DNA of 36,566 nt from Elusimicrobiota bacterium. GTDB lineage: Bacteria; Elusimicrobiota; Elusimicrobia; 2-02-FULL-39-32. Positions 18,001 to 36,395 of this stretch are shown here, piece by piece (position 1 is the first letter of the stretch; each line of letters starts with the position of its first letter). Under the pieces are notes generated by a model. That model was not told the DNA's origin. It saw only the letters and a program-made list of their open reading frames with translations, and did no database searches. The translations under genes were made by a program, and so were the position numbers. Location: NCBI GenBank assembly GCA_016180425.1, contig JACPBF010000017.1:1-36566 (forward strand). Direction: 5' to 3'.

Positions 18001-18850
18001 TTTTAGAGATTGGGGAGTACTGATTAATGAATTTGGATTGCTCATGATTGAGTCGCATGTTTTGCCTGCTAGTTATGTGGCGGAACATCCAGGTGAAACG
18101 CTTAGCATCCCATTTTATGCAACTCATGCGTATTCTGGTCAATTCACCCCTGAGTTAAAAATTAGCAACGAGGCTTTATTAGAAAACGGTTTAATCTTGA
18201 AAAAACAGAGCCTCTTCCCAAGTGAAGGAACTCCAACTATTTCAGTCAGCCGTATTGTTTCTCTAAAATCTAGTCCGTTAGGAACAGATGAATCTCACAG
18301 TTCTCTAATAGAGAATAGCGATCATGTTCTTACCTTAGATTTTAGTAAGGATGAGAACATTAAAGCTCAGGCAGAATCTTATCTTATGCAAATTCGCTCA
18401 ACTAGAGTTCCAGAACTGCTAAAGACTGTTTTAATCTTTAATGTTTCTTTTGAAAAATTAGACCCAGAGTTATTCAAGTTTGAGCAGGAACTGCTTTCTT
18501 TGGTTCTGGAGAACAAAATTACCATGGAAGAATTTTATGCGGTCAGGCCAAATTGGATTGTGACTTCGCGGGAGGAGATGAATGGTTCTGGCATTATTTT
18601 GGCTGAATCTGGAAAAGTTGCAACTGAACTTTTCCATACTTGGGTTTGGGCTCAAGCTCAAAACATGGGCTGGCAGCTAAGCCATAACTTTGCTCTTTCT
18701 ATTGTGACGCAAGATGCCAATCTATGGCAGTCCACAGAGAACAGGTTTATTCAAATTTTCCAGATATTAACCAACGGAACCATTCTGCCAATGAGCCCAG
18801 AATTAGAACAGGAAGAAAGAGAAAAAAGCGTATCCTCCATTAGTTCCTAA
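2..18850 (+). CDS. Giant multidomain membrane protein, 5'-partial (at least 6,277 aa)
   Basis: A single open frame runs from the left edge to TAA at 18848-18850. The first ATG (17) has no Shine-Dalgarno (SD) sequence and the codons before it (from 2) are also open, so the real start is upstream of the window. Residue numbers below count from that ATG. Domain order: unknown helical region with a membrane pair (about 180-230); degenerate 2-hydroxyacid dehydrogenase (277-815); Pro/Ala/Gln-rich linker (825-888); AceK-like (890-1415); Mpv17-like membrane module (1488-1695); TPR-like (1750-2050); second Mpv17-like module (2165-2358); helical and membrane regions of unknown family (2400-3710); second TPR-like region (3750-3920); Rossmann-like remnant (3930-4100); permuted phosphoglycerate mutase (4144-4712); glucoamylase-like (4830-5245); signal-like segment plus anchor (5280-5365); methyltransferase (5515-6085); C-terminal domain (6102-6277). 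The many membrane segments place it in an envelope membrane. Function of the whole is unknown; no frameshift was seen. Confidence 0.9.
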   Translation, partial: QATGGMDPNEITPEEAGVDGTLSVLTEAIVRIQAKLRSQNIHQDSNKQGIKEREEAFQKIGNPQIFKPKSPIYREEVSYKEREYQVFSADNEDEKLSKRLLNDPQGELEAEEILDGAKNVWSGQMKDPFTGEVGQTFAVGEKPENVLAQVAKRIRVTLNNSTKDKSSKIIKFIKRVLERNEIKAAAWIFGVPLSLIAYHGIHGNTWLATSWAIGAVLFLVSSAFISLLILVIFGRRSEFIHLIIISRLPQALQRIWYRITIPVYPIEISGLRFVRLKVNQPKAKVLVIEPLSLEIISELNRRFGDMDIDLLDIRSELVKEGESWKPGIHGKLLELVKSQHYDYVVGYINENYDEDFFREAKLKGLILFSTAIHHIDLDAATKYGTVVTNAPGPTTIPVAEGLIAFFLDVIFSNKVQTKKSKGYTRLSELKSDPENSLVIAQALWYSLMRNVLKLEEMFKFGASDKYVRVGVGEEATVYHGKIGQSVYDESSPTIGIIGLDEVGLKLAEIAMAHEPAIIYVLQDELNGAKLLRLNSYKEILEQTSTTERLAIRIQPVSLSELLKHSSYVLRTPAGVQRMKGSRMKIASDANQIFIKDLDELIHLTSPITVGVLGLGRIGEASAQRFISLGANLLIQQRDPGRQEYIEKRERLAQLAEVVGGRLNRSIDVQYVDKEIFLRASNVISLSPPKKTNETVGWVNREGLEIFGELAQGSLRAIISITKDVVDETAMITYLNLHPEVEYRTDVASDEEKGGFFKRFIDPKGNRLKNAKVSGHTSAAHGGSKKAKQRIAFNNNLRQLMINKRPANQLNDMRLDSSGVTFLDQTSEAIAHAQGPASIAAAPPASQIQNSHAQAPLAQTQIPAPATQSPSPQITAPPIPAGTPTVVTSHGPMGQLAKTAAEMIEAAFITYYEKFFTITARAKRRFDQMDWENLLQDVEERLGLYNNTLNDLENSLRALLKNKLRDIPMWIEIQGLYSGNLIDNRILGANPYVIGMVFCNSIAKRIFGPEADVFEYTFEEDFENRTLETNESFLYSMYRNRLPMEYILTDILVKLEFSKPLRDIRKDIRRAVSNIDSELAKLGLTQDHINEIEVVKAPFFRNRDCYVIGRITTDTGFLPFALFLKNTKQGIVLSKVLLNADDIYRLFSSTRANFHVLFYYPLELVTFLITMIPRDPVSIYASLGFYEFAEQLLYKKTMNELAEGNKVFQIAEGLPGRAMVVITLPGFPYVLKIMKDVFEGGAALTRNEVVEKYREVSVDPMGRMLNTFTFDTRLPKRYFHPDLLALLKESAKESVRTEGDYLHIQHSFVQRKITPLNLFLDREGRSSLAQRVALDFGKTLEDILAEQGKFPKASLGDFGVTDDHRVLFYGFDKIVPLTSVTFDDLQNLLSLIPQQFHDPLRSRHPKLYDPDYFRELLEKASRPKKKRSGSGKIVTGIAVGLVSFGLLFSKDSVALTPGFIASLSLDTVIGLALLAALFLISTRPIRSYLEGKRIHIWLKFILSYSLLGFLAYLLYGSNLNFIQIPFFSLLANILLFGFFTTLSDLLGQWMSGRKINIKQTLHAFPAGLFMGAVTAVGFALLNNYFPKDSSLPYLLLAMIRVVGAMVVVRARTFIYARLVEKMSASQQSEKKWDLKEIIKAWFKSPSQDKQFESFWMTRIPSFIKNFIIQMFVPEGMSVAAEGVATQFFALFYSWSVNKDWYLDKSLRWQKWREEKPFIKNPALNVVFVRAYLIFYPVLYLIFMISSFAFKGFIQQRKRFNEGILAIEDLINRGEYNRATLIAQRLLIYPYSPKQSYLLSKIFAEIGLNESRKRVNSSFTFMQSLVLARQYLDKKYPKQHVSIFGQEEFEFLLRGMIQAGHNDVLFKILAEEEDRQKESDDPTRYEIYAQMAAEYYRMGGQQDKLDLSFSKAVRLANKTDLENSHQYIIEKLEEAGITADVFIYLFGFVPKEDGSRALTSVRFGEAYYKLASDQNSEEYFAKAEKMFELAEETADQIRDDDLRSKLYDLISAALLSIHSLEEAKETLFKARKQIAPSQSSTHSGRQKQETEFIANTREIMDETGFINKVRENVDETESFSLRMLNEARRVSLKRSKKYLDGFIKPAQPHYKQMLDSHERKLNSVQRMFANYRKAFLRGLTHSLKIPMFLSLGMAGGISGGGAGRDSELKNIKLPLWKKFVISYLILGFSIGLLYGSGLEKIKDPILSPILNIVLFALFTVLNDILAQWITGRKFQLKQTLSMIPIGILFGIYMFIGFWMINFFMSANAPYPYIVVAIVRILAHWGLGYGQVTIYAFFVGKSKSVSEGPLSRQKSDEAFLMARIPGFINIYIIQMLLPTNVSIAAEGITSQLFRLFYAWAANKDGFIIQSERWGKYRKNPLFLIFFPVIIFIFFPFDFIRSRIAYNHNRKGEKNKESSTKEVLEKILAVEKPKRHLTLEFYRYVMTLIRGSIAEDLREHIGKQAGERDQLHRFIREKNILKAFDDVVKEIKSEHREMRKRGFALIDSSDVPREDPRFVESVAQNIYNLDLAERIVCAFLLFRIMRFYFQIAYEDNDKDSPTFYSWLKQLRDEIEQKGMDSLIEYAQSQYSMSPEELSRLESAMKYRLDFYFQKIDGIYESYWRKSKSPAALTWDVADLIFNIQIKNILYLKQSKFFEPYYKSFGLVYADRTIAQFDQEKWKPTAARRKPTRSFLTVLLTAPLGILGGLGMAGGATVVPVIREEPHDLLMGSGGGVLKARRSLLSQWLKEKMRFTDEQIDWYETRIAHFEAWPQGILVSAIHGILILLIYSAFGVSIDHPSIVDLLSASAIHLILQSIFGGLLAEFLIKMHEKVGKNVGRGPPESHFMASSYSFVVYAIVLCFYFLTPYFPDSISIVILINFLSYTIADEIHHIFWNLYHPSGQRRSLIPLNPIESQRAILSLSRSFVTDVKAKLIAKGLDDLANEFQSLILELHPFIKVSAKHGRYRLVNEEKVERFLYITKQAGFNLDINGFIWAELLYHYFESYNLLSLGGGYTNIVFTTQYQVRDFFEKMSKEFGLELPTDYEDKRLVPLTMQLYVKFWLQRIVPGLDPKVFGFHIFEGFGEKIVRALDGTLLWQIEYFLSLLTPGERYATGYAHNLKEGKEKSVEEVRKMILNRLKIKDESPETEFERMKEAYAKYKKSSYGFPILVTLPKAGEEKVGIEPISHKKLNKMSQINGAVNIHDDFEISKDAIGPVEKFDEIREQIISKILSADRLGFKGIVFDKTWIQEMEIKVYQDIANIIIDVLREMASQKSLQSLEKVAIVLPEKVEDVVAHQNARDMPSTVSLFPEDLKNGDIVHIQSPFNYLERAVLFEEPALENGFTASLLPIHHWSDDLFGFLASKRYLDKRQVSSLVAYPVSSLVRYGLRIERETVQEDDYLIKVGQKFLVTHDDIPYSATVIGIMHRHFIFILNAPLNEKVENLGGYAMYMYIENAEELVKKGEWELIEEWSKEDVRGVGGIIPFVKDPIVGMLEKLFPKIAKERLEKIYNVGIAFIADNLFAFRVGGLIPLALALLMSGNLDFAFRVAYIFTWPALTLLHSSVLNLRLGSRAPPPENIWLAALISMINLSLLFFPLSTSDLIAFSFLSHFLVNLTASLLGEMKQMRGIVSAARQIFYGVLPILSKLKLLMQTLKLTIRLSYYFSPPDDGDIAIENTLNDSPKITTRNLVKTLLAVQNIFSSIILTITQHPNRVKVTLKRRNFLTILLTAPLGLMGGMGMAGGLGGLGGRNKKQKVVDQVKREIQKKDFEKAVRSAEKFDPQFILDPDFLFLVKAVIEAGMVETLYKVAGQDHSENQFKNYVAIGKELFERQKESNATLAFILAGKTAKKAEDFLFIVENLLEVERIQFAYSFAQKINFLSPLRNQAFVKIALAFRKKGEREKAKETVFKARAPKEIVAEDAKPILAASPKQESLTFQDYLNAILSITKDLRRKVIQISGLDIEKRKLALALLEEGAIVIVSDPDGKNIQLLYDGLDAEKRKEVDQRLFTFRGRGVYSFKDFPDTQGSLKRLMRPGLRTKLGIPGIDIFVTDKIDNNLILKLQKAKVEQLIVPLVLEDGSIKELKSYSVADLPVVANSQSASQTQAKAKATLSFITEISKQLAQIVKMTGVEVEKALWDLAHQIRTEDNTIALENHDLSPVLNAIYKGGIEDQLIPPIVVVNQQGEPIGTIKDGDRAIFINFRTDRAKPITYALTPAAGYEGLEGGLVSNFPKPKVHFVTMTNYDDAFVEHVQVAFEPAPFGKTYSEIIAAHGYKEVRFMESEKWRAGTWFLDGRRNIVDQLGIDVRVVPSPKKASYVEVPEMSAVALTDEVISVIENDPSVTDIFVNYANPDMVSHAFAQVNPKGDFDAVVKAIQVVDEQLGRLVEAALQKGWVIAITADHGNAEELYDKEGNPMPGHSTNKVPFILLSHNDWELRNIDFIEDGSLSNIAPTLLELRGIAAPKEMTSDSLIFSHVDSDPSRKIMRIVLDGWGLSKQKKGNAIARAGELTKLNMDHWLTSQTSGPGRWLDRYPHTALNASSVEAGYPMGVAGTTEFGHVNLDGGRHLQSDLTLINQALEDGSFAKNMALLNSMFEALQNETSLHLMGLVSHGSKGDIHASMEHLFMLLRMAKAVGLKKDQVKIHVFTDGRDSGPQSAVQFIKLLQIVLDDLDLGMIVDVMGRGWAMDRDNRWLRISSAYDAMVGGIGAIYVQESFTDPSITAPKKEKSANWIEKLGQFSKVILLAMVVQAASACFDSSVSKSQANPISRPGAIAAPQLTPKPQTPIATPSLPIGIDVLVSEAARAEARANIENGLKGTVTAEKRKVLEDLMQKIEARIAEFTNTKTGLPLDTTKKLDKTTTSNIGKFIELVSVAEKLERKIPFKDGLTHQDVVLLGLKSLESATDNCQCDGFTPTHLYHDNPSKLDPNSDISYLDQGNLIPGMESARMVFNGNAETARIASKILNGMNYKLLLRDDTTRWALKDYLLGGGAKFLGPGKVSYIRDWGLRGHTDNFWLFIGAVGTENEAHRILPQYLFAKDREGDETFELVPGFPVVAIPADVDDKRRKQNGFYHRNYDDGALFSRAMPTLDTVGSSYDALALSEFIAQIAFAYTRGYRWVGISAAADSSGVEYNGYGNTDLRESAPHSSAMLLGRNLKLDNLIIENLMRYPTFEGVPTDAVNNGTGEYARQQTLWDMMLLYLAVANYLYEDTPRNLIMQSPTIKNVQARAPEYFSASNPERLKELADKKVKDLLDFIERQKFSSLKSSAAPSFGVSTLLTRRSNSAKMRWGLTASLKTFLIFGFTGVLAFVSIVDKAMAETGKALDPQVVNNTAGYLSLNSILLPLAIIVLAGALVGFLIYLARRQKRSRSTSLLGFQGIKTFVRTSRYGLEGQTELSMEDQQLLKQGADQPDFDKNSPLDAFEKPADVTREDFSAAGSFLRVVQLFGRGHLKDRDPPAIWPTRPKDNFDSRAPPSDPTIVSDANALPESQQFVAQEAPASNSDFNLLSKGQEFSQTFSPNPVSPPKLNKDETRAIFRKIYIHLDGIGLASTIAEFHKNNIFKILSEKDGISMQEITDYLLKQGKVEKVNKGHMHAAMVLLEMQGWLKRKGKSASDSMQFYLTPQGKIALDRVEPYKEVTDFVPVLARMKEFLFDSKTPLIINQFSFQELVKKSQRQWDILQGKPDPQDKTDEVNLRIADHLRGFLIGPVMVALKDAKVFEKFHPLTHSLDLTKIGGNLFNLRSAFDLLEQEGWAVRNGNVVTLTRKGMFAAEKAWTYGVTVSYLPMFSRQGELFFGEHPEKVFERDANNIETHLNRPMNLSACTAIHDRYFKELTNNLKEIYDNSDFELQPSYIQDTGGGDGSLLLHMHEYILNNTERGRLMKQELAETGKIEKYKISLIDVDINPESLEIAHQVLNREGIPNLVFEGTVNDPRAIAQELVMRGIPLNKILHVHSFVDHNRDYQTPKEDWSLRITFADAAFVDKVTGRTISNEELQQNLVEHFRDWGVLINEFGLLMIESHVLPASYVAEHPGETLSIPFYATHAYSGQFTPELKISNEALLENGLILKKQSLFPSEGTPTISVSRIVSLKSSPLGTDESHSSLIENSDHVLTLDFSKDENIKAQAESYLMQIRSTRVPELLKTVLIFNVSFEKLDPELFKFEQELLSLVLENKITMEEFYAVRPNWIVTSREEMNGSGIILAESGKVATELFHTWVWAQAQNMGWQLSHNFALSIVTQDANLWQSTENRFIQIFQILTNGTILPMSPELEQEEREKSVSSISS
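846..2460 (+). other. Domain: degenerate D-2-hydroxyacid dehydrogenase (SerA-like) with doubled Rossmann motif
   Basis: Residues about 277-815 of the giant protein follow the SerA/2-hacid_dh pattern: a NAPGPTTIPVAEG segment matching the family's NAPG.NT..VAE, a canonical nucleotide-binding GLGRIG (608-613), and a C-terminal SGHTSAAHGGS (His770) matching the catalytic-His TPH..AST segment. A second, weaker Rossmann motif, GLDEVG (493-498), precedes the canonical one, giving two tandem nucleotide-fold starts with an insertion between them. The Arg usually found at the N-terminal substrate site is Leu/Phe in 'GLILFSTAIHHIDL', and the Arg of the usual 'ARG..VDE' is missing in 'SITKDVVDETA'. Known family chemistry (NAD-dependent oxidation of 3-phosphoglycerate) is therefore doubtful here; it may only bind nucleotide. 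Confidence in fold is good, in activity low. Confidence 0.7.
2480..2684 (+). other. Low-complexity Pro/Ala/Gln/Ser linker
   Basis: Residues about 822-889 are almost only A, P, Q, S, T, H and I (for example APPASQIQNSHAQAPLAQTQ). It separates the dehydrogenase-like region from the AceK-like domain and looks like a flexible interdomain linker, possibly protease-accessible. Confidence 0.75.
2685..4260 (+). other. Domain: AceK-like (isocitrate dehydrogenase kinase/phosphatase), probably catalytically altered
   Basis: Residues about 890-1415 align over nearly the whole of E. coli AceK as I remember it. Landmarks: RRFDQMDWENL near the start (AceK QRFEQADW), GRAMVVITLPGFPYVLKIMK (AceK GMVMLVFTLPGF.RVFKVIK, containing the ATP-binding Lys; here Lys1226/1229), DPMGRM (AceK DRVGRM), QRKITPLNLFLD (AceK ERRMVPLNIWLE) and FGVTDDHRVLFYGFDKI (AceK FGVTRHGRVVFYDYDEI). 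About 525 aa against about 578 in AceK; the missing part is mostly near the C-terminus. The AceK segment 'PGDMLFKNFGV' is 'PKASLGDFGV' here, so the catalytic Asp (D457, remembered numbering) is lost, Asn462 is Asp1351, and Asp475 is Gly1364; Asp477 is kept (Asp1366). The AceK identity is strong; the normal glyoxylate-bypass role is unlikely. No isocitrate dehydrogenase or glyoxylate genes lie nearby. Confidence 0.88.
4280..5110 (+). other. Domain: polytopic membrane module copy 1 (Mpv17/PMP22-like)
   Basis: A TM pair (about 1425-1475) is followed by residues about 1488-1695 with several hydrophobic helices. The segment LSDLLGQWMSGRKINIKQTL resembles the Mpv17 'GD.I.Q......D..RT' signature, and the tail with IKNFIIQMFVPE... 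FYSWSVNKD resembles the Mpv17 end (NFYLVP... WNSYLSWK). Mpv17-family proteins are small four-helix channels, best known in eukaryotes. The family assignment is tentative, but the membrane topology and the duplication (see copy 2) are plainly visible. Confidence 0.6.
5260..6120 (+). other. Domain: TPR-like helical repeat region 1
   Basis: Residues about 1748-2050 are a run of amphipathic helix pairs with TPR-like spacing: 'EDLINRGEYNRATLIAQRLL', 'YAQMAAEYYRMGGQQDKLDL', 'AKAEKMFELAEETADQ', ending in LEEAKETLFKARKQIAPS. That ending recurs as REKAKETVFKARAPKE in the second TPR-like region (11270-11760), so the two are probably duplicates. Likely a protein-interaction scaffold. Confidence 0.6.
6510..7100 (+). 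other. Domain: polytopic membrane module copy 2 (Mpv17/PMP22-like)
   Basis: Residues about 2165-2358 repeat module 1 in order: ISYLILGF...LLYGSGL, LNDILAQWITGRKFQLKQTL, YIVVAIVRILAHW, and MARIPGFINIYIIQMLLPTN... LFYAWAANKD. By eye the copies share roughly 40% of residues in the core. A glycine-rich GMAGGISGGGAG stretch lies just before it. The duplication unit appears to be TPR plus glycine motif plus membrane module. Confidence 0.6.
7200..12440 (+). other. Unassigned helical, membrane and Rossmann-like central region of the giant protein
   Basis: I recognise no family from 7200 to 11260. Visible parts: soluble helical region (7200-8040); Tat-like/Gly-rich segment (8050-8135); three or four TM helices (about 8300-8670); a soluble region (8700-10500) with mixed alpha/beta character; another TM cluster (10530-10900); a second Tat-like/Gly-rich segment (11145-11245). 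TPR-like region 2 (11270-11760) follows, then a Rossmann-like stretch (11800-12300) with 'EEGAIVIVSDPDG' and 'GIDIFVTDKID' strands and no complete glycine motif. Confidence 0.5.
12440..14155 (+). other. Domain: circularly permuted cofactor-independent phosphoglycerate mutase (GpmI-like)
   Basis: Both halves of iPGM are present in swapped order. First (12440-13430) comes the normally C-terminal half: INFRTDRAK (Arg4196, Arg4199), SEKW with Lys, PEMSA, NYANPDMVSH (Asp4346, His4350), TADHGNAE (Asp4394, His4395) and PGHSTN (His4412). Then (13448-14150) comes the normally N-terminal half: MRIVLDGWG, GNAI, GHVNLDGGR, HLMGLVSHG...DIHAS, FTDGRD and AMDRDNRW. The halves join directly through 'SRKI', so old C- and N-termini are fused and new termini lie in the transferase domain. 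Known iPGM metal and phosphate ligands are nearly all kept, but the nucleophilic Ser of GNSEVGH is Thr4547 (GTTEFGH). Thr acts as nucleophile in other alkaline-phosphatase-superfamily enzymes, so activity (perhaps altered) is possible. Family identity is strong. Confidence 0.92.
14205..14262 (+). other. Internal lipoprotein-signal-like segment (lipobox at Cys4747)
   Basis: After the mutase, Lys is followed by a hydrophobic core and a lipobox-like end: VILLAMVVQAASAC, then FDSSVSKSQ and a Pro-rich linker. This is the form of a Sec/lipoprotein (SPase II) signal, but it sits about 4,730 residues into the chain. It could simply be a transmembrane helix. Confidence 0.5.
14490..15750 (+). other. 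Domain: glucoamylase/DUF3131-like (alpha/alpha)6 carbohydrate-active domain
   Basis: Residues about 4825-5245 begin TKTGLPLDT...TTTSNIGKFIEL, like the 'TGLP.D......TSPTNIG' start of DUF3131 and related glucoamylase-like families, followed by YLDQGNLIPGMESAR (family: TVDSGNL). Later come 'FSRAMPTLDTVGSSYDALAL', 'RWVGISAAADS' (family WG.S.S), an 'APHSSAMLL' segment and 'GEYARQQTLWDMMLLYLAVA'. Related enzymes act on beta-1,2-glucans or other polysaccharides. It follows a lipobox-like segment, so an extracytoplasmic carbohydrate role is plausible. Substrate and catalytic acids are not assigned. Confidence 0.6.
15854..16110 (+). other. Internal Sec-signal-like segment followed by a TM anchor
   Basis: MRWGLTASLKTFLIFGF...VDKAMAETGK has a basic n-region, hydrophobic core and an A-M-A|E SPase I-type motif (Ala5311). 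About 20 residues later a second helix, LLPLAIIVLAGALVGFLIYL, is followed by a basic stop-transfer stretch (ARRQKRSRS). Without cleavage this is a simple helical hairpin. Confidence 0.55.
16560..18270 (+). other. Domain: SAM-dependent methyltransferase with winged-helix-like N-terminal part
   Basis: Residues about 5515-6085. The N-terminal part has winged-helix-like helices (FKILSEKDGISMQEITDYLL, VLLEMQGWLKRKG ... YLTPQGKIALD) repeated in weaker form around 17090-17310. The core has SAM motif I as DTGGGDGSLLLHM (from Asp5849), an acidic strand end LIDVDINPESLEIAHQVL, a 'GTVNDP' segment, and LHVHSFVDHNRDY (His5945). These resemble the class I C-methyltransferases associated with bacterial polyketide synthases (AprA-type) as I remember them. 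No PKS genes are nearby, so the substrate is unknown. Confidence 0.65.
18320..18850 (+). other. Shared C-terminal domain (copy in giant protein 1)
   Basis: Residues 6102-6277. It starts DHVLTLDFS, has WIVTSREEM in the middle and ends with an 'ALSIVTQDANLWQST' strand/helix and 'TNGTILPMSPELEQ'. The second giant protein ends with a matching series (DHILEFHLS, YLITRDEIE, LDIFTDQMIFKENW, PTRIVPISSQMGEL) of nearly the same length. The terminal position in both suggests a sorting, anchoring or assembly domain; no known family recognised. Confidence 0.65.
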
Positions 18851-18965: not shown

Positions 18966-19451
18966 TTATTTTAGACTTTTGAGAAATTTACTATAGGTAG
19001 GAGCATCAATCCAGAGATTAAATTTTTCTACCAGAAGATCTGCTAGCTCAATTATTTTTTCCTTTGAGCGAATTTTTTTAGATGCTGCAAGGTTTAGCAA
19101 TCCTAAGGTTCCTAATGTTAACAAACCGCGTGTGGCAAGAATATTGCGAAGAAATTTGTCATCTGCTAACACCACTGTAGGATGGATTGAATGAGCCAGC
19201 TCAAATACAGACCAATCTGCAAGACTCCCTGCTCCTTTTAAGGGGGGCTGGATTTTGACTGGTTTAACCTTCCAGAGTTTTAATTCGTCTTTTAAGTAGA
19301 TTTTTTCTTCTTCGCTGAGAGTTGAATCCAAAACCTCATGATAAACAATTGAAGGAATATAATAAGGACCTTTAAAAAGATCTTTTATAAGACTCAATTC
19401 CTCAATCTTACTTAAGAAAATAAGAGGAGAAGCATCGGAAATAACGCTCAT
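18966..19451 (-). CDS. PIN-domain toxin, DUF3368 family
   Basis: A 161-aa protein starting MSVISDASPLIFLSK, the typical beginning of DUF3368 PIN nucleases. Conserved acidic residues sit at Asp6, Glu39 (IPSIVYHEV), Asp79 (SLADWS) and Asp97/98 (VVLADDKFLR), consistent with a metal-dependent RNase active site. The later GLLTLGTLGLLNLA helix is also typical of the family. It lies 7 nt downstream of a UPF0175-like antitoxin in the same direction, so the two form a toxin-antitoxin operon. No strong SD is seen, which fits translation coupled to the antitoxin. Length is normal for the family. Confidence 0.88.
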   Translation of the reverse strand: MSVISDASPLIFLSKIEELSLIKDLFKGPYYIPSIVYHEVLDSTLSEEEKIYLKDELKLWKVKPVKIQPPLKGAGSLADWSVFELAHSIHPTVVLADDKFLRNILATRGLLTLGTLGLLNLAASKKIRSKEKIIELADLLVEKFNLWIDAPTYSKFLKSLK

Positions 19452-19458
19452 CTATAAA

Positions 19459-19770
19459 TTAAAAAGATGTTCTTATTGTTTCCAAGTCTTTTTCGAATTC
19501 TTGAGAATCGTAATGGATCTTTCCACCTTGTCGCCCTAACTCTGACAAGAATTCCCAAACTGTTACGCCCATCAATTCTGCGGCTTTGGATAGGCTTGCC
19601 TTACCTTGGCTATAGGCTTTAATCGCGCTATTTTTTCTATAAGTTTCCATTCCCAGTCGCACAAGTTTGCGGATTATAGAAGATCTGTCTTCACCTTCCA
19701 ACTGAGCAAGAAGGCTCACCATTTTTGACTCCGCTGGATCTAGGCGCGCTGAGGCAACCTCGTTTTTCAT
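19459..19770 (-). CDS. UPF0175-family antitoxin
   Basis: A 103-aa protein from ATG at 19770, chosen because GGAGGT lies 5 nt upstream; an upstream ATG at 19827 would add 19 residues and start inside the -10 region of the promoter. The N-terminal part (ARLDPAESKMVSLLAQLEG.. SSIIRKLVRLGMETY) looks like a ribbon-helix-helix DNA-binding segment. The C-terminal part (YSQGKASLSKAAELMGVTVWEFLSEL) is the hallmark UPF0175 helix-turn-helix-like region. UPF0175 proteins typically pair with DUF3368 PIN toxins, exactly the next gene. It probably neutralises the toxin and represses its own promoter. Confidence 0.88.
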   Translation of the reverse strand: MKNEVASARLDPAESKMVSLLAQLEGEDRSSIIRKLVRLGMETYRKNSAIKAYSQGKASLSKAAELMGVTVWEFLSELGRQGGKIHYDSQEFEKDLETIRTSF

Positions 19771-19792
19771 TATTGACCTCCGTTTACAGAAT

Positions 19793-19841
19793 ACAGAATC
19801 TGTATACATAAGAGTATAGCAGGGCAACTTGATTCCGTCAA
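19793..19841 (-). promoter_or_regulatory. Promoter and operator of the toxin-antitoxin operon
   Basis: On the minus strand TTGACG (19836-19841) and TATACT (19813-19818) are separated by 17 nt, a near-consensus sigma-70-type promoter. Between the -10 box and the SD lies an 11-nt palindrome ACAGAATCTGT (19793-19803), overlapped by a second palindrome TGTATACA (19801-19808) and preceded by a direct repeat of TACAGAA. This is a good place for autorepression by the antitoxin. Confidence 0.75.
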
Positions 19842-29172: not shown

Positions 29173-29300
29173 AGGCAACTTCTGGTAGACACCAGAAGGC
29201 GCAAAGCTCAAAAGCCAAACCTACGATCTTAATGAAGCAGAAGTTTTCCTGCATTTTAAGATTTTGGTAGGGAAGCTGGTTTGAGTTACCGAAGGTTATG
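29160..29300 (+). ncRNA. Cyclic-di-GMP riboswitch, class I (GEMM-I)
   Basis: The region has the GEMM-I order: GGCAA (29174-29178), a P2 hairpin with 8-bp stem and AGAC loop (29179-29198), GCGCAAAGC (29199-29207, consensus GACGCAAAGC), AAACCTAC (29217-29224), a long P3 hairpin, GGTAGGGAAGC (29266-29276, consensus GGUAGGUAGC) and GTTACCGA (29285-29292, consensus GGUUACCGA). CTCAAA (29207-29212) pairs with TTTGAG (29280-29285), replacing the equivalent helix in the Vc2 aptamer. The G before CAA that distinguishes c-di-GMP from cGAMP binders is G. The outer stem pairs CATAAC (29160-29165) with GTTATG (29295-29300), which contains the start codon of the downstream gene, implying translational repression when ligand is bound. 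Confidence 0.87.
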
Positions 29301-32300
29301 ATAAAAAATAGTTCTCATCATCGTCATTCATTTTGGCTACGTCATACTTCGTTATGTATGGCCGTAGTCTTTTTTTATGTACAGGTAGGTTATGGAGTTA
29401 TAGAGCCTTTGGCTCAGACTCAAAAAGAGAAGAAGTACGCAAAACTGTGGCAAGAAAGAAAAGAAGCAGCGAATAAACTAAACAGCAAAGATCATCACAG
29501 CCAACAGCTACTCAAACAGGAATCAGACCCAACAGTATCTCTACCAAAACAAACTGAAGGACTCCTATCCCAACTCCCGTTTCTAGAGACAAACTTTTTA
29601 ACAAACTCCTTTCCTCAAACCCAAGAGTTTGGCAGGGATTTCCCTGTAGTATCCCCTAGTGAACTTGAAGTAGGGAAATTATCTCCTTCTCAATCTAAAA
29701 CTCTAGGTTCATGGCTGAAGGCGCTCCCTCCAAGTTATGCATCTTTAAGAGACCTCTATATCCCGCCCAACTGGCAGCCTCAAGATTTGATGGTGTTTCA
29801 TATCCAAGATGCTCATGAAAACTTTGAAGCTCAAAAGAATATCGCCAGGATCATTGAACTTCTTGCAGAAGCTAGGATTGATAATTCAGGTTTTAGGGTT
29901 CGTGCTCCCACCAAATCATCTGGGAATGATCTAAACGGACATCAGAATCAGAGGCACCAACTGCGAATGGTAGTTGGCTTAGAAGGAGCGTCTGGCCCTA
30001 TGAACTTTGAGCCTTACCAAACATTTCCAGAGCCAGGAATTACAAAAGAGATAGCAGACTACTTTTTAAAAGAATCGTTTATTAGTGGGGCAGAATATGC
30101 GGGAATGACTTTGAATTTAAACAGGGGGTTTGGGAATCGGGTTATAAAGAACTTACAACTAGATTCGATCTTTGAGAAAGAAACTTTCGGTAAATTACCC
30201 GAACCTCCTGTATTGTTCTGGGGAATAGAGAGTAAAGAACCGTATCTAGATCATATTAGAGCTTACAAGGACTCTATTCCTTTACAGCAAAAAGCAAAAG
30301 AGATACATCAAGTGCTTTTGTCTTCAGTTAACCAGATCAAAGCAACCGTATTCAACCCTAAACTTAAAACTTTAGATGAGAAGATAACCCGCTACAATAA
30401 AGGAGAGATCAAATTAGGAGATTACATTAAATTCCTATTTCAACTACAGCCAAAAGTTTCTAGCCATTACCCAAACCTTCGTCAATTCTTAGATGCCTTA
30501 TCTTTAGAAGAATCCCTTGACTATGAGAAAGTAGAAGAGGAGAGAAGAAAATTAACTAAAGAACTCACAGAAAAACTACCAAAAATCGAACTCAATAACT
30601 TAGCAGCCGCCAGTGTCTCTTACCGTTTAAAAACAATCACTCACGGCTCTTTCTACCAATATCTCAAAGATTTATGTTTTGCCTATGGAGTAGGTTTATC
30701 CCAATATCCAGATATGGACAAATATATCCGCTATGTTTTGACCAGTGAGAAGATCGTGTCTGATCATCTGTTTGATGAGATCAATCTCCTAGAGAGAAAG
30801 GGATTAGAATCGAACATCAGAAACAGGGATGAAAAAAAGCTGATCCAGATATCTAGAGATTTAACTTTAATAGAAAAGCTGATCAAATACGAGCTTAGCC
30901 CTATGGAATGGGAAGAGTATGCCAATAGAAAAGAGGAAATTCGCAAGGTTCAAGAGAGAATCAAGGAGTTTACTAAAAAAAATATTGACAGCATTCAAAA
31001 TAAAACAGCTGAGTTCGCACATAAAGAAATTGAACAGAAACAAGAACTCTTAAATTATATTCATGCTTTTGAGAAGTTCAACCAAGCAGCTATTAAAAGG
31101 GATGGACTGCTGGTAGGTAACCTTCTCAGTAAGGTTAAAGAAACAAAGTCTGGTTCTACCCTAATAGGGATCATGGTTACAGGAGGGTTCCATACTGCTG
31201 GCATTACACGGCTGTTAAAAGATAAGAAGACGGCATATGTTGTATTGTCGCCAAGAATAGGAGAAGTTAAAGGGTCAGGTTCCGAATATTTGGATGTTTT
31301 CACTAGAGATAAAACCCAGCTTGAAAAACTCTTCACTGGAGAACGGATCACTCTTAAATCTCCTCTCCCCACTGCTCTATATCAGGCTGGGGAAGAAATC
31401 CCTACTCAAACCTATGTGGTGGAACGAATGTTTACCCTGTTTGCCTCTGGAAGGTTAGTCAAGAAAGCTCTACAGCAGTTCTCTCATCTTACACGAGAAA
31501 ATAAAAAGCAAGTAGAGAAGGATCTTTTAAGTTGGATGGAGAGTATAAAAAAGGAGAAAGGGTTTACAACCATTGATGGGATTACCATTAAAAAGATTGA
31601 GGAATTTAGGAAATCCGATGGAACCATAGAGAAGCTGACAGTTAGAATTAGTCTTTATGGGAATGTGAATGGGGAGAGAAAAGAGAGTAAGGTGGCTTTG
31701 GAGATCAGAACTGAATGGTCAGCGCCCGCAAAGGATGATTCAAAGGGAACTGAAGGATTTAAAGTTCCAACGAAAGAGCAGAATCGTCAAAATCTTGCAA
31801 ATAAAATCAGTGAACTGAAGTTTGAAAATGAAATCTTCACAATTTATGTTCCCCAGAGTGATTTTATAGAGAGAGCGCTGGATGCCATCAAAAATCAGCT
31901 AGGATTAGTTTCTAAAATTGTCAAAAAGAACGCGGATCGTAAGATATTCCTCCAACTGCCAAATATACCTATGAAAATAATACCTCATATAACCAAGATA
32001 GCAGCCATTCTATTAGGAATTAAAATAGTCACACTAGCTGCGCCTGCTTTTGCAGCTGGAACAGGAGCTGATATCGTTACTTCTGTAGCGAATTTATTTC
32101 TAAATGTCTCTGTTACTTTTGCCTTCATCATGCTTTCTATTCCGCTCATTTTCATGCCAATACTCGATCAGTTAAAGGAGCAGGAGTTAGACCAGAAAAT
32201 GTTTAGTTCTTGGAAGCAAAGAATCAGAACTCTTGAAGAAAGACTGCCTAAAGAAGAATCAGTATTACTATCTGTGATGATGTTAGCGGGGACATTAATC

Positions 32301-35300
32301 TTCTTTTATTTTATTTCTTATATCAATAATGTACAACTGCCATTATTTAATCCAGAGCTAGTTGATCCCTACTTAATTGAATATAATTTCTCCCTCTTTG
32401 AAAAATTCGTTGGAACCTTTGCTTCAGAAAATCAAATAAATTTTTATTTTTTTAGGTATAAAGCATTGCAAATGTTCACTGGTTTATTTTATCTTTTTTT
32501 AGGAGCATCCATAGTAAACGCAACCATAAATCTTACCCATGCTGTTTCCTATTGGATAGAAAGAATTCATTATAAGCTCTTTGCGCAAGAGATTGCAGCG
32601 AAAAATGATCCAATAGCTAGAAAATTAAGATTAACTAAAGTCCCCATTAACCCTCCAAAGAGAAGTCGGGAACGTCGTATCCCTTTACGTAACACGGTTT
32701 GGCTTCAATCTGGCGGCTATACTATAAAATGTTGGGTTGCAAAGACAGGAGAAAATGAGCAAGTGTTTTATCGCCAATATGATGCAATGAGTGGAAACCC
32801 TCTGTCAGATTCTAAAGCAGTAATATTCCAAGGAACTAACTATCCCCCTACTTTTACAGTAGTTCCTCATATAGAAAATCTAGGTATTTTTAATGGGGAT
32901 TATGATACCCATCTAAAACATTTTAAAATCTCAATGGAACATCTTAAGTCCGGTTCATTCGCATTCAAGTTATACGATTATGAATCTGGAGTTACTGTGG
33001 TGCAAGATAGAAAAATAGAAAAGGAATCCACGGTCACAGAAATAAAAAAAGAGGTAAGCAACGTCATTATAGAAACTAATGATCCATTGAAATCACAAGA
33101 AGACGGTGAGGAAGAGATAAAAAGAATTTTACAGAGTGGAGAGATTCCATTAGATCAAATTTGGTCAGCTATAGGAGATGGGGACAGTTTTGGGGATACC
33201 AATAAGGTGGATAGCAAAGATTTGATTGGCACATTAGGGAAACCTGATTCAACTCGGGTTCTTTTCTCTAATAGGACGCACCGATCTATTTACAAAGAAT
33301 TAAGAATAGTGATGCAAGAGAAAGCGCAAGAGGATGGAGGAGTGGTATATCGCTATGTGGGCGGAGATGAGTTCATGCCAGTTTTTACAGGAACAAGAGA
33401 AGAGGTTAAAGAGAAGTTAGATGGGCTTGTAAAACATGTGAATGAATATTTTAAAGGTAAATATGCGATCTTTAGGATCAGTGGGGATAATCTTTCAAAG
33501 CAGCAGATCAATAGTTTAAAGAGAATGAAAGGATCATTGGTGTTAGCTAGACATGGGAAGGGTTATAACATTTTATTTGAGAGAAATGGGGAGATAGAGA
33601 GTAATTTAGAGGCTTTATTTAAAGGAAGAGAAGGGATTGAGGTAGCTCCTATAGACATAGAAACAGAGCTAAGAGGGTTAATCACTATTTCTATTGGAGC
33701 TGTTTCTGCAGAACAGGTGTTGGAGTATATTGTGAGTCAGAGTGCGAAAGAGAAAGTTAGAAAGGAAGAGAAAAAAATGAGGGCTCAAGGATCAACCAAT
33801 GATCAAATTCATGCAATGGAAAAGAGGATAAAACAAGAGATTAGGATGGAATGGATTACAATAAAAAATGGTCAAGAAGTGATTCAGCAAGAAAAGTTAG
33901 ATGAGTTCTATCTATGGAGCATTAGGATCGCAAATGATATGTTAAAAAAAGCAAAGGAGGAAGATGAGAAGAGAGTAAAGGGAAAAGGGAGGAATAGAGC
34001 CGAATTGCCAACAACTCTTAAAGAAAATATTACAGATTATTTAGAAAAAATACATAAACCAATCACTCCAGCTAAGATTCAGGAATTACAGGAGAAGTTA
34101 AAGAAACATAAGGATCAAGAAGGAAACAAGGGAGATGGATTAGATGGATTAACAGGAGCAGAGTTGTATGAGGTGTTTAGAGGTAAAGTATCTAAATCAG
34201 ATTATGGCAATCTCATGTTAGTTGCCATGTTGAATTGGGGTTTAGGTCAGAAACGAGCATTCCATGAGTTGCAGGATATAGTTGGGTATCTTTCTGGGAA
34301 CGAAGCGATTAAATTATTGTTTGACCAAATTCAATCTACTTTGCAAGAGATAGAGAATCTGCAAGGAATAAAAGAAGGAGAAGAATTCTATTTATCTCGC
34401 GGTCCTCCAGACAAGGCATATACCTATAGCACGAATGTAAGTTTGCGTGGTCCACCAGAGCTGTTTGAGAGACTTAAGTTCTTGGTAAAGGAATTAGAAG
34501 AAAAACTGAATGAGAAATTTAAAAAGGAGTTAGAGGAACTAAAAGAGCAAGAAAATTTTAAAGAGAAGTTTCCAGATTTTGATCAGTTACGCATTCAGTT
34601 AGTAATTTATGATGTATCGTTAGATGAGTTAAAAAAGCTTAAAGAGAGAAGCCCAGAATTAGCCAAGAGGCTGCAGAATGGGTTTCAAGCCATAGATTTA
34701 ATGGGTGGGTTAGTAGATTCTGCTTCAGTAATAGGGATGGATAGAATTAAAGAGGTATTGGATGTAAGGGAAATTAAGATAGAGGGCTATAAAGATATTT
34801 TGGTATTAGGGCTGCCATATAAGGATGGGAATCTAGATTTAAGAAGAATTGAGAAGTTATTAGAGTTGTATGAAGAAGCAGAACAAAAGATCGCAGAAGA
34901 AGCTTATGAGAATCTATTAGTAAGTCGAGGAATAGATCCAAAGAGCAGGGTGAATCCATTTAAAGGGAAAAGAGCGATTGAAGTTGCAACAAAACCAGAA
35001 ACTAAAAAGGAAGAAGTTTCTAAAGGGATTATAAAAAGAACAATAGATTTAGTAGTGAAAGAAGAAGGAACTTCTATGGTTGAATATGGGATTCTAACAA
35101 GTTTAGCTGCGTTAGGAGCAATAGTTTTATCTTTGTTTGTTCCTTTGATAACTCCTATGGTAGTTGCATTAACGACTATATTAGGATATCCAATCACAAC
35201 TAAAGATGAGAAGGTGGGACGGAACAAGAAGGGAAGATATTGGAGCAAGGATAAAGAGGGAGAGATCCCTATAGGAGCAAAAGTGGGTATAAAGGAAAAT

Positions 35301-36395
35301 TTTCAAGAACAATTAAAGAAAAAAGTCCCTTTCCATATTTTACCTGAAATAGAGAAACTAGATTTAAATGAGTTAAATGAAATTGAGAAAGCATTAAGAC
35401 TAGAACTAGACAATGATCAAGTAAAACAGATGTTAAGAGCTATTCATTTATTAACATACGCTGAACTGTTTGAAGGCGATTTTAAAGAGAAAGATGAACC
35501 AATAGGGGAACTATCAGATTTGTCAAAAGTGATTGGGTATCTTTCTTTAGGAGAGCTAAAGAGTGTTGTCCAGAGATTTAAAGAACTCTATAAAGAAGAT
35601 CGTAAAAAGGCAGAACAGTCCTTTGGAGTTTTTGCAGAGAGATTGTTTAGGCTTGGAGGAGAGTTCAGCTATGCTAATGACTATGCAAGAGACAGCTCTG
35701 AAAAATATTTTGAAGAATTGTGGCAATCCTATTTAGGTTTAAGAGTGATATTAGCTCCTCAACAAAAACTCTCTCAAACAAAACTTAAGCAAATGAAACA
35801 AACAGCATTAACTGCCTATCATCATGGAGCTGGAATGAGCGGGAAGTTTAAATCCCAACCATTCCCGGACCAAATCCCTCAAGACCATATCCTAGAGTTC
35901 CATCTATCTAGCCTAGATGGGAATGGAATCCAATCTCTGGTAGAACAGATTAAAAAACAGTTTGTAAAAGAAGAAAGAAACATAATTTTAATTTCTACCC
36001 ATAAAGAGGATATTACAGAAGAATCATTGATTTTTGCTTTAAATGGATTAGGTATAAATCAAGATATGTTACAAGCTTTATTTCCTTTTGGATTAGGGGA
36101 ATATTTAATTACAAGGGATGAAATAGAGAAGAAGCAGCTCATAGACCCAAGAATAGAGATTGAGCCTGATGGTTTATATGAGATCGTGTTGGAAAAAGTC
36201 AGAGCAATTCATGGAACACAAATTACAGAGGTTACACTAGATATTTTTACAGATCAGATGATCTTTAAAGAGAATTGGAAAGAAGGATTGAAGATTACTT
36301 TAAATTTCCTGATCTCTCCTACTCGAATTGTCCCAATCAGCTCGCAGATGGGAGAACTCTTTAAAGCAAGAGAACTATTGGCGCTACAACAGTAA
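29298..36395 (+). CDS. Second giant protein: signal peptide, ChaN/TraB-like region, membrane region, GGDEF, Flp-like prepilin segment, shared C-terminal domain
   Basis: A 2,365-aa protein. ATG 29298 is chosen because a signal-peptide-like N-terminus follows (SLCMAVVFFYVQVGYG) and the riboswitch ends on this codon; GAAGG is only 2 nt upstream, so its ribosome site is poor or unusual (next in-frame ATG 29358). Residues about 150-710 contain HIQDAHENFEAQKNI (from His167), VVGLEGASGPM, LFWGIESKEPY and VTGGFHTAGITRLLKDKK..YVVLSP, reminiscent of ChaN/TraB-type folds (weak). A membrane region (about 895-1110) has an AAPAFAAG site. A beta domain of unknown type follows, then a divergent GGDEF domain (1288-1570), a Lys/Glu-rich helical region, a Flp-like prepilin segment (1922-1970), more helices, and the shared C-terminal domain (2196-2365). 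Function unknown; c-di-GMP control of an envelope protein is the likeliest theme. Confidence 0.9.
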   Translation: MIKNSSHHRHSFWLRHTSLCMAVVFFYVQVGYGVIEPLAQTQKEKKYAKLWQERKEAANKLNSKDHHSQQLLKQESDPTVSLPKQTEGLLSQLPFLETNFLTNSFPQTQEFGRDFPVVSPSELEVGKLSPSQSKTLGSWLKALPPSYASLRDLYIPPNWQPQDLMVFHIQDAHENFEAQKNIARIIELLAEARIDNSGFRVRAPTKSSGNDLNGHQNQRHQLRMVVGLEGASGPMNFEPYQTFPEPGITKEIADYFLKESFISGAEYAGMTLNLNRGFGNRVIKNLQLDSIFEKETFGKLPEPPVLFWGIESKEPYLDHIRAYKDSIPLQQKAKEIHQVLLSSVNQIKATVFNPKLKTLDEKITRYNKGEIKLGDYIKFLFQLQPKVSSHYPNLRQFLDALSLEESLDYEKVEEERRKLTKELTEKLPKIELNNLAAASVSYRLKTITHGSFYQYLKDLCFAYGVGLSQYPDMDKYIRYVLTSEKIVSDHLFDEINLLERKGLESNIRNRDEKKLIQISRDLTLIEKLIKYELSPMEWEEYANRKEEIRKVQERIKEFTKKNIDSIQNKTAEFAHKEIEQKQELLNYIHAFEKFNQAAIKRDGLLVGNLLSKVKETKSGSTLIGIMVTGGFHTAGITRLLKDKKTAYVVLSPRIGEVKGSGSEYLDVFTRDKTQLEKLFTGERITLKSPLPTALYQAGEEIPTQTYVVERMFTLFASGRLVKKALQQFSHLTRENKKQVEKDLLSWMESIKKEKGFTTIDGITIKKIEEFRKSDGTIEKLTVRISLYGNVNGERKESKVALEIRTEWSAPAKDDSKGTEGFKVPTKEQNRQNLANKISELKFENEIFTIYVPQSDFIERALDAIKNQLGLVSKIVKKNADRKIFLQLPNIPMKIIPHITKIAAILLGIKIVTLAAPAFAAGTGADIVTSVANLFLNVSVTFAFIMLSIPLIFMPILDQLKEQELDQKMFSSWKQRIRTLEERLPKEESVLLSVMMLAGTLIFFYFISYINNVQLPLFNPELVDPYLIEYNFSLFEKFVGTFASENQINFYFFRYKALQMFTGLFYLFLGASIVNATINLTHAVSYWIERIHYKLFAQEIAAKNDPIARKLRLTKVPINPPKRSRERRIPLRNTVWLQSGGYTIKCWVAKTGENEQVFYRQYDAMSGNPLSDSKAVIFQGTNYPPTFTVVPHIENLGIFNGDYDTHLKHFKISMEHLKSGSFAFKLYDYESGVTVVQDRKIEKESTVTEIKKEVSNVIIETNDPLKSQEDGEEEIKRILQSGEIPLDQIWSAIGDGDSFGDTNKVDSKDLIGTLGKPDSTRVLFSNRTHRSIYKELRIVMQEKAQEDGGVVYRYVGGDEFMPVFTGTREEVKEKLDGLVKHVNEYFKGKYAIFRISGDNLSKQQINSLKRMKGSLVLARHGKGYNILFERNGEIESNLEALFKGREGIEVAPIDIETELRGLITISIGAVSAEQVLEYIVSQSAKEKVRKEEKKMRAQGSTNDQIHAMEKRIKQEIRMEWITIKNGQEVIQQEKLDEFYLWSIRIANDMLKKAKEEDEKRVKGKGRNRAELPTTLKENITDYLEKIHKPITPAKIQELQEKLKKHKDQEGNKGDGLDGLTGAELYEVFRGKVSKSDYGNLMLVAMLNWGLGQKRAFHELQDIVGYLSGNEAIKLLFDQIQSTLQEIENLQGIKEGEEFYLSRGPPDKAYTYSTNVSLRGPPELFERLKFLVKELEEKLNEKFKKELEELKEQENFKEKFPDFDQLRIQLVIYDVSLDELKKLKERSPELAKRLQNGFQAIDLMGGLVDSASVIGMDRIKEVLDVREIKIEGYKDILVLGLPYKDGNLDLRRIEKLLELYEEAEQKIAEEAYENLLVSRGIDPKSRVNPFKGKRAIEVATKPETKKEEVSKGIIKRTIDLVVKEEGTSMVEYGILTSLAALGAIVLSLFVPLITPMVVALTTILGYPITTKDEKVGRNKKGRYWSKDKEGEIPIGAKVGIKENFQEQLKKKVPFHILPEIEKLDLNELNEIEKALRLELDNDQVKQMLRAIHLLTYAELFEGDFKEKDEPIGELSDLSKVIGYLSLGELKSVVQRFKELYKEDRKKAEQSFGVFAERLFRLGGEFSYANDYARDSSEKYFEELWQSYLGLRVILAPQQKLSQTKLKQMKQTALTAYHHGAGMSGKFKSQPFPDQIPQDHILEFHLSSLDGNGIQSLVEQIKKQFVKEERNIILISTHKEDITEESLIFALNGLGINQDMLQALFPFGLGEYLITRDEIEKKQLIDPRIEIEPDGLYEIVLEKVRAIHGTQITEVTLDIFTDQMIFKENWKEGLKITLNFLISPTRIVPISSQMGELFKARELLALQQ
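31960..32620 (+). other. Membrane region with internal signal-peptide-like segment
   Basis: IIPHITKIAAILLGIKIVTLAAPAFAAG has a basic/hydrophobic build ending in an A-F-A|A SPase I-type motif near residues 915-922. At least three more hydrophobic helices follow (VSVTFAFIMLSIPLIFMPIL; LLSVMMLAGTLIFFYFISYI; FTGLFYLFLGASIVNATINL), so this is the main membrane part of the protein. Confidence 0.6.
33160..34010 (+). other. Domain: divergent GGDEF (diguanylate cyclase-like)
   Basis: Residues about 1288-1570. DGDSFGDTN (Asp1294, Asp1296, Phe1298, Asp1300, Asn1302) matches the family's D.D.FK..ND; YVGGDEFMPV carries an intact GGDEF (1355-1359); ITISIGAVSAEQ matches the 'vTiSiGva' strand; and ANDMLKKAKEEDEKRVKGKG matches the 'AD.ALY.AK..GRN' helix. 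An insertion of about 80 residues lies between GGDEF and TISIG, and the GH..GD segment after the first motif is degenerate. It could synthesise or merely bind nucleotide. The gene's leader carries a c-di-GMP aptamer. Confidence 0.82.
35061..35190 (+). other. Embedded Flp/Tad-type prepilin-like segment
   Basis: EEG|TSMVEYGILTSLAALG (Gly1924, Glu1929, Tyr1930) reproduces the Flp prepilin pattern: Gly at -1, Glu at +5, Tyr at +6, EYG and then a hydrophobic helix. The preceding residues are basic (IKRTIDLVVK). In true Flp pilins this is a 50-70 aa protein; here it lies more than 1,900 residues into a giant protein. A second hydrophobic stretch (ITPMVVALTTILGYP) follows. Confidence 0.75.
35883..36395 (+). 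other. Shared C-terminal domain (copy in giant protein 2)
   Basis: Residues 2196-2365 match the last 176 residues of the first giant protein in order and spacing (DHILEFHLS / DHVLTLDFS; YLITRDEIE / WIVTSREEM; TRIVPISSQMGEL / GTILPMSPELEQE). A few small gaps are needed in the first third. Confidence 0.65.

Follow-up and report, generated by a model that had tools for sequence, protein, structure and literature searches.

We analysed a window of 36,566 nucleotides (the whole stretch of DNA under study) from the genome of an Elusimicrobiota bacterium, here called G000 (2.6 Mb, 98% complete; C-numbers denote its contigs), together with its congener Elusimicrobia bacterium RIFCSPLOWO2_02_FULL_39_32 (G001). 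These are the genus's two genomes, with a completeness of 96–98%. The window carries a giant ORF, P0001, which is composed of the following parts:

29298–36395, + strand: giant ORF P0001, 2365 aa, open throughout; paralogues exist
29349–29405, + strand: N-terminal hydrophobic helix, residues 18–36, followed by an LWxERRxAxxEL-type stretch common to the genus's giants
29415–31367, + strand: N-terminal domain, about residues 40–690, common to most giants examined in both genomes at 25–48% identity
31998–32537, + strand: four predicted membrane helices, residues 901–1080 (Kyte-Doolittle only)
33021–34260, + strand: region with the GGDEF-like motif YRYVGGDEF, residues 1242–1654 (by eye)
35061–35090, + strand: Flp-type prepilin motif EEG/TSMVEYG, residues 1922–1931; the slash marks the predicted scissile bond, between the codons ending at 35069 and starting at 35070
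35079–35195, + strand: hydrophobic stretch, residues 1928–1966, most probably a tight hairpin of two helices that turns near VPLITP
35196–35270, + strand: K/R-rich flank after the hairpin, residues 1967–1991, 8 K/R in 25
35196–36392, + strand: C-terminal domain, residues 1967–2365, common to C19, C16, C32 and C18 (2781 aa) of G000 and to G001 giants
36381–36392, + strand: C-terminal tail ALQQ, of a kind common to many giants

The GGDEF-like region was unsupported by Pfam, by PDB sequences and by Foldseek, which returned nothing below E 0.03. AlphaFold gave a pLDDT of 49.5 for this region and of 39 for residues 1868–2365, where the model is unreliable, and we therefore claim no fold for the parts of P0001. 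At the place of the GGDEF-like motif the paralogues display a degenerate GEGADEI. A profile of the N-terminal domain matched nothing convincing among PDB sequences; its motifs HIQDAHEN and GGFHT are reminiscent of Tiki/ChaN, a relationship for which no claim is made. Nearly all giants of G000 and G001 share this head, consisting of a signal-like helix, the LWxERRxAxxEL stretch and an unassigned domain of ~650 residues, while their middles and ends are variable. Many giants with unrelated ends have similar tails (ALQQ, AIQQ, IAQQA, IEFQA, IHINA, INLIKFQA), which suggests a shared C-terminal signal.

A sequence-only reading had placed a prepilin pattern near residue 1924, and this could be confirmed: Gly1924 (codon 35067–35069) occupies position -1, T1925 +1, E1929 +5 and Y1930 +6, with 38 uncharged residues after +6. 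The segment thus has the Gly-1, Glu+5, Tyr/Phe+6 and hydrophobic helix of an Flp-type site; it is not a short free-standing gene, being embedded at residue 1924 of 2365, so that 1924 residues precede the bond. The same reading had called it an exact match to the Flp/Tad pattern, which is true for the key residues and too strong for the whole Flp family. The Pfam search it had proposed (Flp_Fap, PF04964; cut-off 32.2 bits) left the segment below the cut-off, with 10.7–11.4 bits (E 0.29–0.5) for three versions of the window fragment and no match for full-length P0001. With scores this far below the cut-off, one protein alone proves little. The lack of an Flp profile hit holds for Pfam alone, and profiles built from relatives do recover the site: a leave-one-out profile of the 20 other embedded segments found it at E 3e-6, and after four paralogues were also removed it was still found at E 4e-4, above every non-member in a set of 41 giant ORFs. 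A profile built from 8 Elusimicrobiota Flp pilins of the free-standing kind missed it (E 41), with five embedded sites topping its list at E < 0.01, the window's not among them. Taking both profiles into account, the window copy is a divergent member of the group.

In an alignment of P0001 with three paralogues, EEGTSMVEYGI was the most conserved 11-mer of 1121 windows, tied with EGTSMVEYGIL, while the C-terminal halves are otherwise 29% identical. These paralogues were first found through the motif, which favours such a result, and a separate search was consequently performed with the C-terminal domain alone, leaving the motif out. It yielded ten ORFs in G000 and G001, six of which carry an Flp-type site directly before the domain (C34, C19, C16, C32, C18 (2781 aa) and the 13472-aa ORF of G001 C16). 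Of the other four, G001 C10 (2033 aa) shows Pro at -1 of a class I-like helix, two (C10 and the ORF corresponding to it in G001) carry an ordinary signal-peptide-like segment, and one contains only other helices. Matches to the C-terminal domain in G002, G003 and G004 showed no prepilin-type site, and a match in G010 (A4), release-factor-like by eye, was discarded as chance.

We consider it highly probable that the giant P0001 truly contains a prepilin module of Flp origin, as part of a genus-wide pattern. Loose matches of G-x4-E before a helix do arise by chance, two of them in nine ORFs of at least 900 aa from stretches chosen for other reasons (42,088 residues, in which no such site was found) and several in other ORFs. 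That the window's motif is merely a chance resemblance before a hydrophobic helix is nevertheless almost certainly wrong, given the leave-one-out E-value, the profile and Pfam significance of other sites and the conservation of the 11-mer.

Where the earlier reading had seen a single site, its Flp-type segment in a giant stood; what it did not foresee is that this is one of 36 internal prepilin-type sites, of two prepilin classes (21 Flp-type and 15 GFTLxE-type), in 23 ORFs of 1047–13472 aa, with 19 sites in 13 ORFs of G000 and 17 in 10 ORFs of G001. The Flp_Fap search of G000 at E <= 10 gave 7 matches, of which one exceeded the cut-off (C6, 33.8 bits) and 5 coincide with G-x4-E sites of ORFs 1047–5918 aa long; among these 5, the ORFs of C19, C32 and C16 are paralogues of P0001 with their parts in the same order. 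A six-segment profile extended this to 12 matches in G000 (ORFs of 1047–5918 aa) and 10 in G001 (2586–13472 aa), one weak G001 match having been discarded. From N_methyl searches, type IVa-like sites were also found inside giants, and three embedded copies pass the Pfam cut-off. Up to five sites occur in one protein of 10747 aa, five candidate sites being the maximum per giant; the deepest Flp segment lies up to 13053 residues into its giant, and several sites follow Ser/Gly/Pro-rich stretches.

Embedding of this kind was confined to the two genomes among those searched. The embedded Flp profile, built from the 21 Flp-type segments and run on 340 Elusimicrobiota genomes (E <= 0.001), matched 21 places in giants of 1047 aa or more, which are its own source sites and belong without exception to G000 and G001; its 18 further places, in 18 other genomes, are all free-standing ORFs of 59–85 aa. 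The embedded GFTLxE profile, built from 13 sites and run on 117 genomes, likewise found 15 places in giants of G000 and G001 only, its other matches lying in ORFs of 68–728 aa. Weak N_methyl matches in two large ORFs, one of G010 (6078 aa) and one of G011 (2472 aa), were rejected, as on reading they have no G-x4-E site ahead of a helix. Viral contigs yielded no relative.

Frameshifts in a few giants (the C-terminal end in C14, the N-terminal end in C19) could be taken to indicate assembly chimaeras or decayed gene fusions. We regard this as extremely unlikely, since related giants with the same modules occur in two separate genomes and frames of up to 40 kb are open, with no stops inside the matches. 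Internal translation starts would offer another way out, the sites then belonging to nested pilin-like genes that use the giant's frame and stop, have a short leader and need no cleavage of the giant. Some of the 36 sites do have an ATG 4–40 codons before them, and four have a start with a Shine-Dalgarno-like stretch; the other 32, the window's included, have no such start, and most lack any ATG in this range, which renders this explanation very unlikely.

Across the 36 sites, Gly-1 is retained in all and Glu+5 in 35; of the 21 Flp-type sites, 20 have Glu+5 and 15 an aromatic residue (Tyr or Phe) at +6. With the -1 and +5 columns left unscored, the top 34 sites still showed Gly-1 in 34 of 34, Glu+5 in 33 and Asp in one before the score dropped, a result that is support rather than proof because the training set was gathered partly with Gly-1 and Glu+5. 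Between the top sites and the drop sits a decayed Flp-type copy, LDQSA/QGMVAYGMMIAGLAG, with Ala at both positions, at residue 757 of the 4433-aa giant of G001 C25 (L050). Of all residue pairs at spacings of 2–8 before hydrophobic segments, Gly-x4-Glu was the most over-represented, with 47 occurrences against 14.4 expected, counting overlapping positions in the 41 giant ORFs (187,183 residues), many of which were picked by motif. Cleavage by PilD would be the likeliest reason for keeping both residues, a proposal for which we see a roughly even chance.

A second hydrophobic segment follows within 110 residues at 27 of the 36 sites. The region after this segment is denser in K/R than the loop at 25 of these 27 and equally dense at two, with 12 K/R in the loops as opposed to 104 after the segment. 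Other sites, that of the window among them, are followed by 28–38 residues without charge, and the central part of this run often contains NPxG or a proline. We read hydropathy and charge pattern as those of a membrane hairpin with both ends inside. The C42 giant of G000 matches the G001 C25 giant on both sides of a block of ~90 residues that holds the helix pair and is missing from C42, a natural experiment that agrees with the hairpin reading. With its N-terminus outside and the hairpin in place, P0001 would have 37 K/R inside and 6 outside. Speaking against this topology, the N-terminus of many giants resembles a Sec signal peptide, and crude helix counts differ in parity among giants: in the paralogues C32 and C19 no helix lies between N-terminus and module, so that the site would be on the wrong side if the N-terminus is exported. 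Judging topology from the N-terminal signal alone was dropped, since N-terminal charges differ between groups of giants.

As to the processing machinery, G000 contains a single complete prepilin peptidase ORF with A24_N and Peptidase_A24 domains and the sequence GLGDIKL, which we take to be a prepilin peptidase motif. It adjoins a PilC-type T2SSF ORF and an N_methyl pilin gene. A search of the genome for tadV/pilD had been suggested from the sequence, and it was answered in part, by this PilD-type peptidase beside type IV pilus-type genes; a TadV-type partner system was not found. TadB/TadC and free-standing Flp pilins were not found in the genus either, G000 and G001 each having a single two-domain PilC-type T2SSF ORF, although at 96–98% completeness TadB/TadC may be absent through gaps. 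Genomes of other families of the class hold additional T2SSF ORFs. Tad platforms are described, in the accessible text of the source, as consisting of TadB and TadC with one T2SSF domain each (PMC6668835). The accessible portions of other reports state that Glu5 neutralises the N-terminal amine of the adjacent pilin and that efficient assembly depends on it, Asp at position 5 of a minor pilin being only slightly worse than Glu (PMC5207764), that prepilin peptidases are promiscuous (PMC12075869) and that the prepilin-like peptidase FlaK seems to recognise the transmembrane helix (PMC4985597). Since Glu5 pairs with an N-terminal amine, this role needs a cleaved N-terminus.

Observed at this point are the sequence, its recurrence, the retention of Gly-1 and Glu+5, the hairpin-like hydropathy and the presence of PilD, with no TadB/TadC found; from these we infer topology, cleavage and the fate of the pieces. 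The best reading, whose probability we judge to fall just short of even, is that of internal Flp-derived hairpin modules, probably with the N-terminal side inside, which are cut by PilD. In each module, a charged stretch resembling a leader would be followed by Gly-1, Glu+5 and the helix with which a membrane hairpin begins. The hairpin would be inserted with both ends cytoplasmic; the bond after Gly-1 would then lie on the cytoplasmic side, just as it does in genuine prepilins, and the single PilD of the genome could cut there and split the giant at each module. What precedes the cut would be freed from that anchor, and what follows it would remain in the membrane with a pilin-like N-terminus bearing a free amine and Glu5. 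Known prepilin signals stand at the N-termini of proteins, and we know of no prepilin peptidase that cuts after a leader of hundreds of residues.

The sequence-only reading had left a choice between a pilin segment gained as an anchor and cleavage that releases the C-terminal part. An embedded Flp-type segment with an intact site and a membrane-fit helix is indeed present. Release of the C-terminal part (441 residues) is unlikely because the hydrophobic helix lies on the C-terminal side of the cut, and it is the N-terminal part of 1924 residues that would be freed from this anchor. A more far-reaching version, in which PilD would cut the giants at many Flp- and GFTLxE-type sites as a polyprotein system into membrane-anchored pieces with pilin N-termini, perhaps entering type IV filaments, is conceivable, and we are rather doubtful of it.

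To compare the sister species, 12 site pairs between G000 and G001 were inspected by eye through their flanks. The site is kept in seven: C6, both sites of C18 (2571 aa), with Glu replaced by Asp at one of them, the group of C16, C19 and C32 taken as a single case, two sites of the 6934-aa giant and one of the 9975-aa giant. In the other five, one of the two species lacks the site, has something else in its place or carries a damaged copy. Gly-1 is kept in C5, while its partner has an ordinary signal-peptide-like segment without Glu5; the segment is missing in the partner of C14; the whole hairpin cassette of G001 C25 is absent from C42; the C-terminal copy of C14 is frameshifted; and in G001 the partner of C18c shows Pro at -1. 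This makes the module both mobile and dispensable. The frameshift of C14 lies at the C-terminal end of its 5489-aa giant (L091 1-2400), where relatives have a prepilin site; another frameshift splits the C19 paralogue (L010 6153-11812) into ORFs of 305 and 1604 aa.

Presence or absence as a cassette, as in C42 and G001 C25, would be expected if captured pilin helices serve as uncleaved anchors or hairpins that spread by recombination between giants. PilD would then leave the sites uncut, either because the leader is a folded domain of the giant or because the site is on the wrong side. This explanation, which we take seriously and hold to be somewhat less than evenly probable, also gains from the ordinary signal or membrane segments that replace the module in homologues, from the many other internal hydrophobic segments of the giants (492 in the 41 ORFs) and from parity counts that clash with an N-in site in several giants. 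However, an anchor could do without Gly-1 and without a charged Glu where its helix begins, yet both persist across widely differing helices of two classes, the decayed helix at residue 757 in G001 C25 being a single case.

Leaders of type IVa prepilins are normally short and N-terminal. Type IVa prepilins and pseudopilins (N_methyl, PF07963) share the G/FTLxE site and hydrophobic helix with the giants, which have up to five such sites in 10747 aa. The helix of the Flp/Fap pilins (Tad, T4c; PF04964), of the form KxEDG/QAxxEYGLI, is the same, and the profiles cross-recognise; these pilins differ in being free-standing and short (59–85 aa in other Elusimicrobiota) and in working with TadB/TadC, whereas the segments described here are embedded and usually followed by a second helix. 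Large minor pilins, such as KilN4-type Tad tips, GspK and PilB/PilC of S. sanguinis, resemble the putative C-terminal product in carrying a large domain downstream of a pilin N-terminus, but, according to the accessible text on them, their pilin helix is at the protein N-terminus and not after 1924 residues (PMC12075869, PMC5207764). Elusimicrobiota are reported to be rich in huge proteins, and the giant ORFs reported for Omnitrophota and Elusimicrobiota are likewise multi-helix; the accessible parts of these papers describe helices, adhesin domains and surface roles, and contain no internal prepilin sites (PMC10066038, PMC11573180, PMC12057145). A search of a literature collection with few subscription journals and no preprints found nothing of the kind for internal prepilin sites or such polyproteins. 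The prepilin-type sites in giants suggest that a pilus-processing enzyme may cut giants into pieces, an idea open to direct testing, since the enzyme is known, the bonds are predicted exactly and a single residue can serve as control.

Elsewhere in the window, a giant of 6277 aa (17-18850) displays by eye a lipobox-like segment, VVQAASACFDSS, and a signal-peptidase-like site, DKAMAETG, as well as repeated FLTxLLTAPLGxxGGxGMAGG segments and phosphoglycerate-mutase-like halves in reversed order. Two small neighbouring ORFs at 18966-19827 on the - strand resemble, again by eye, a toxin–antitoxin pair with a toxin of the PIN type.
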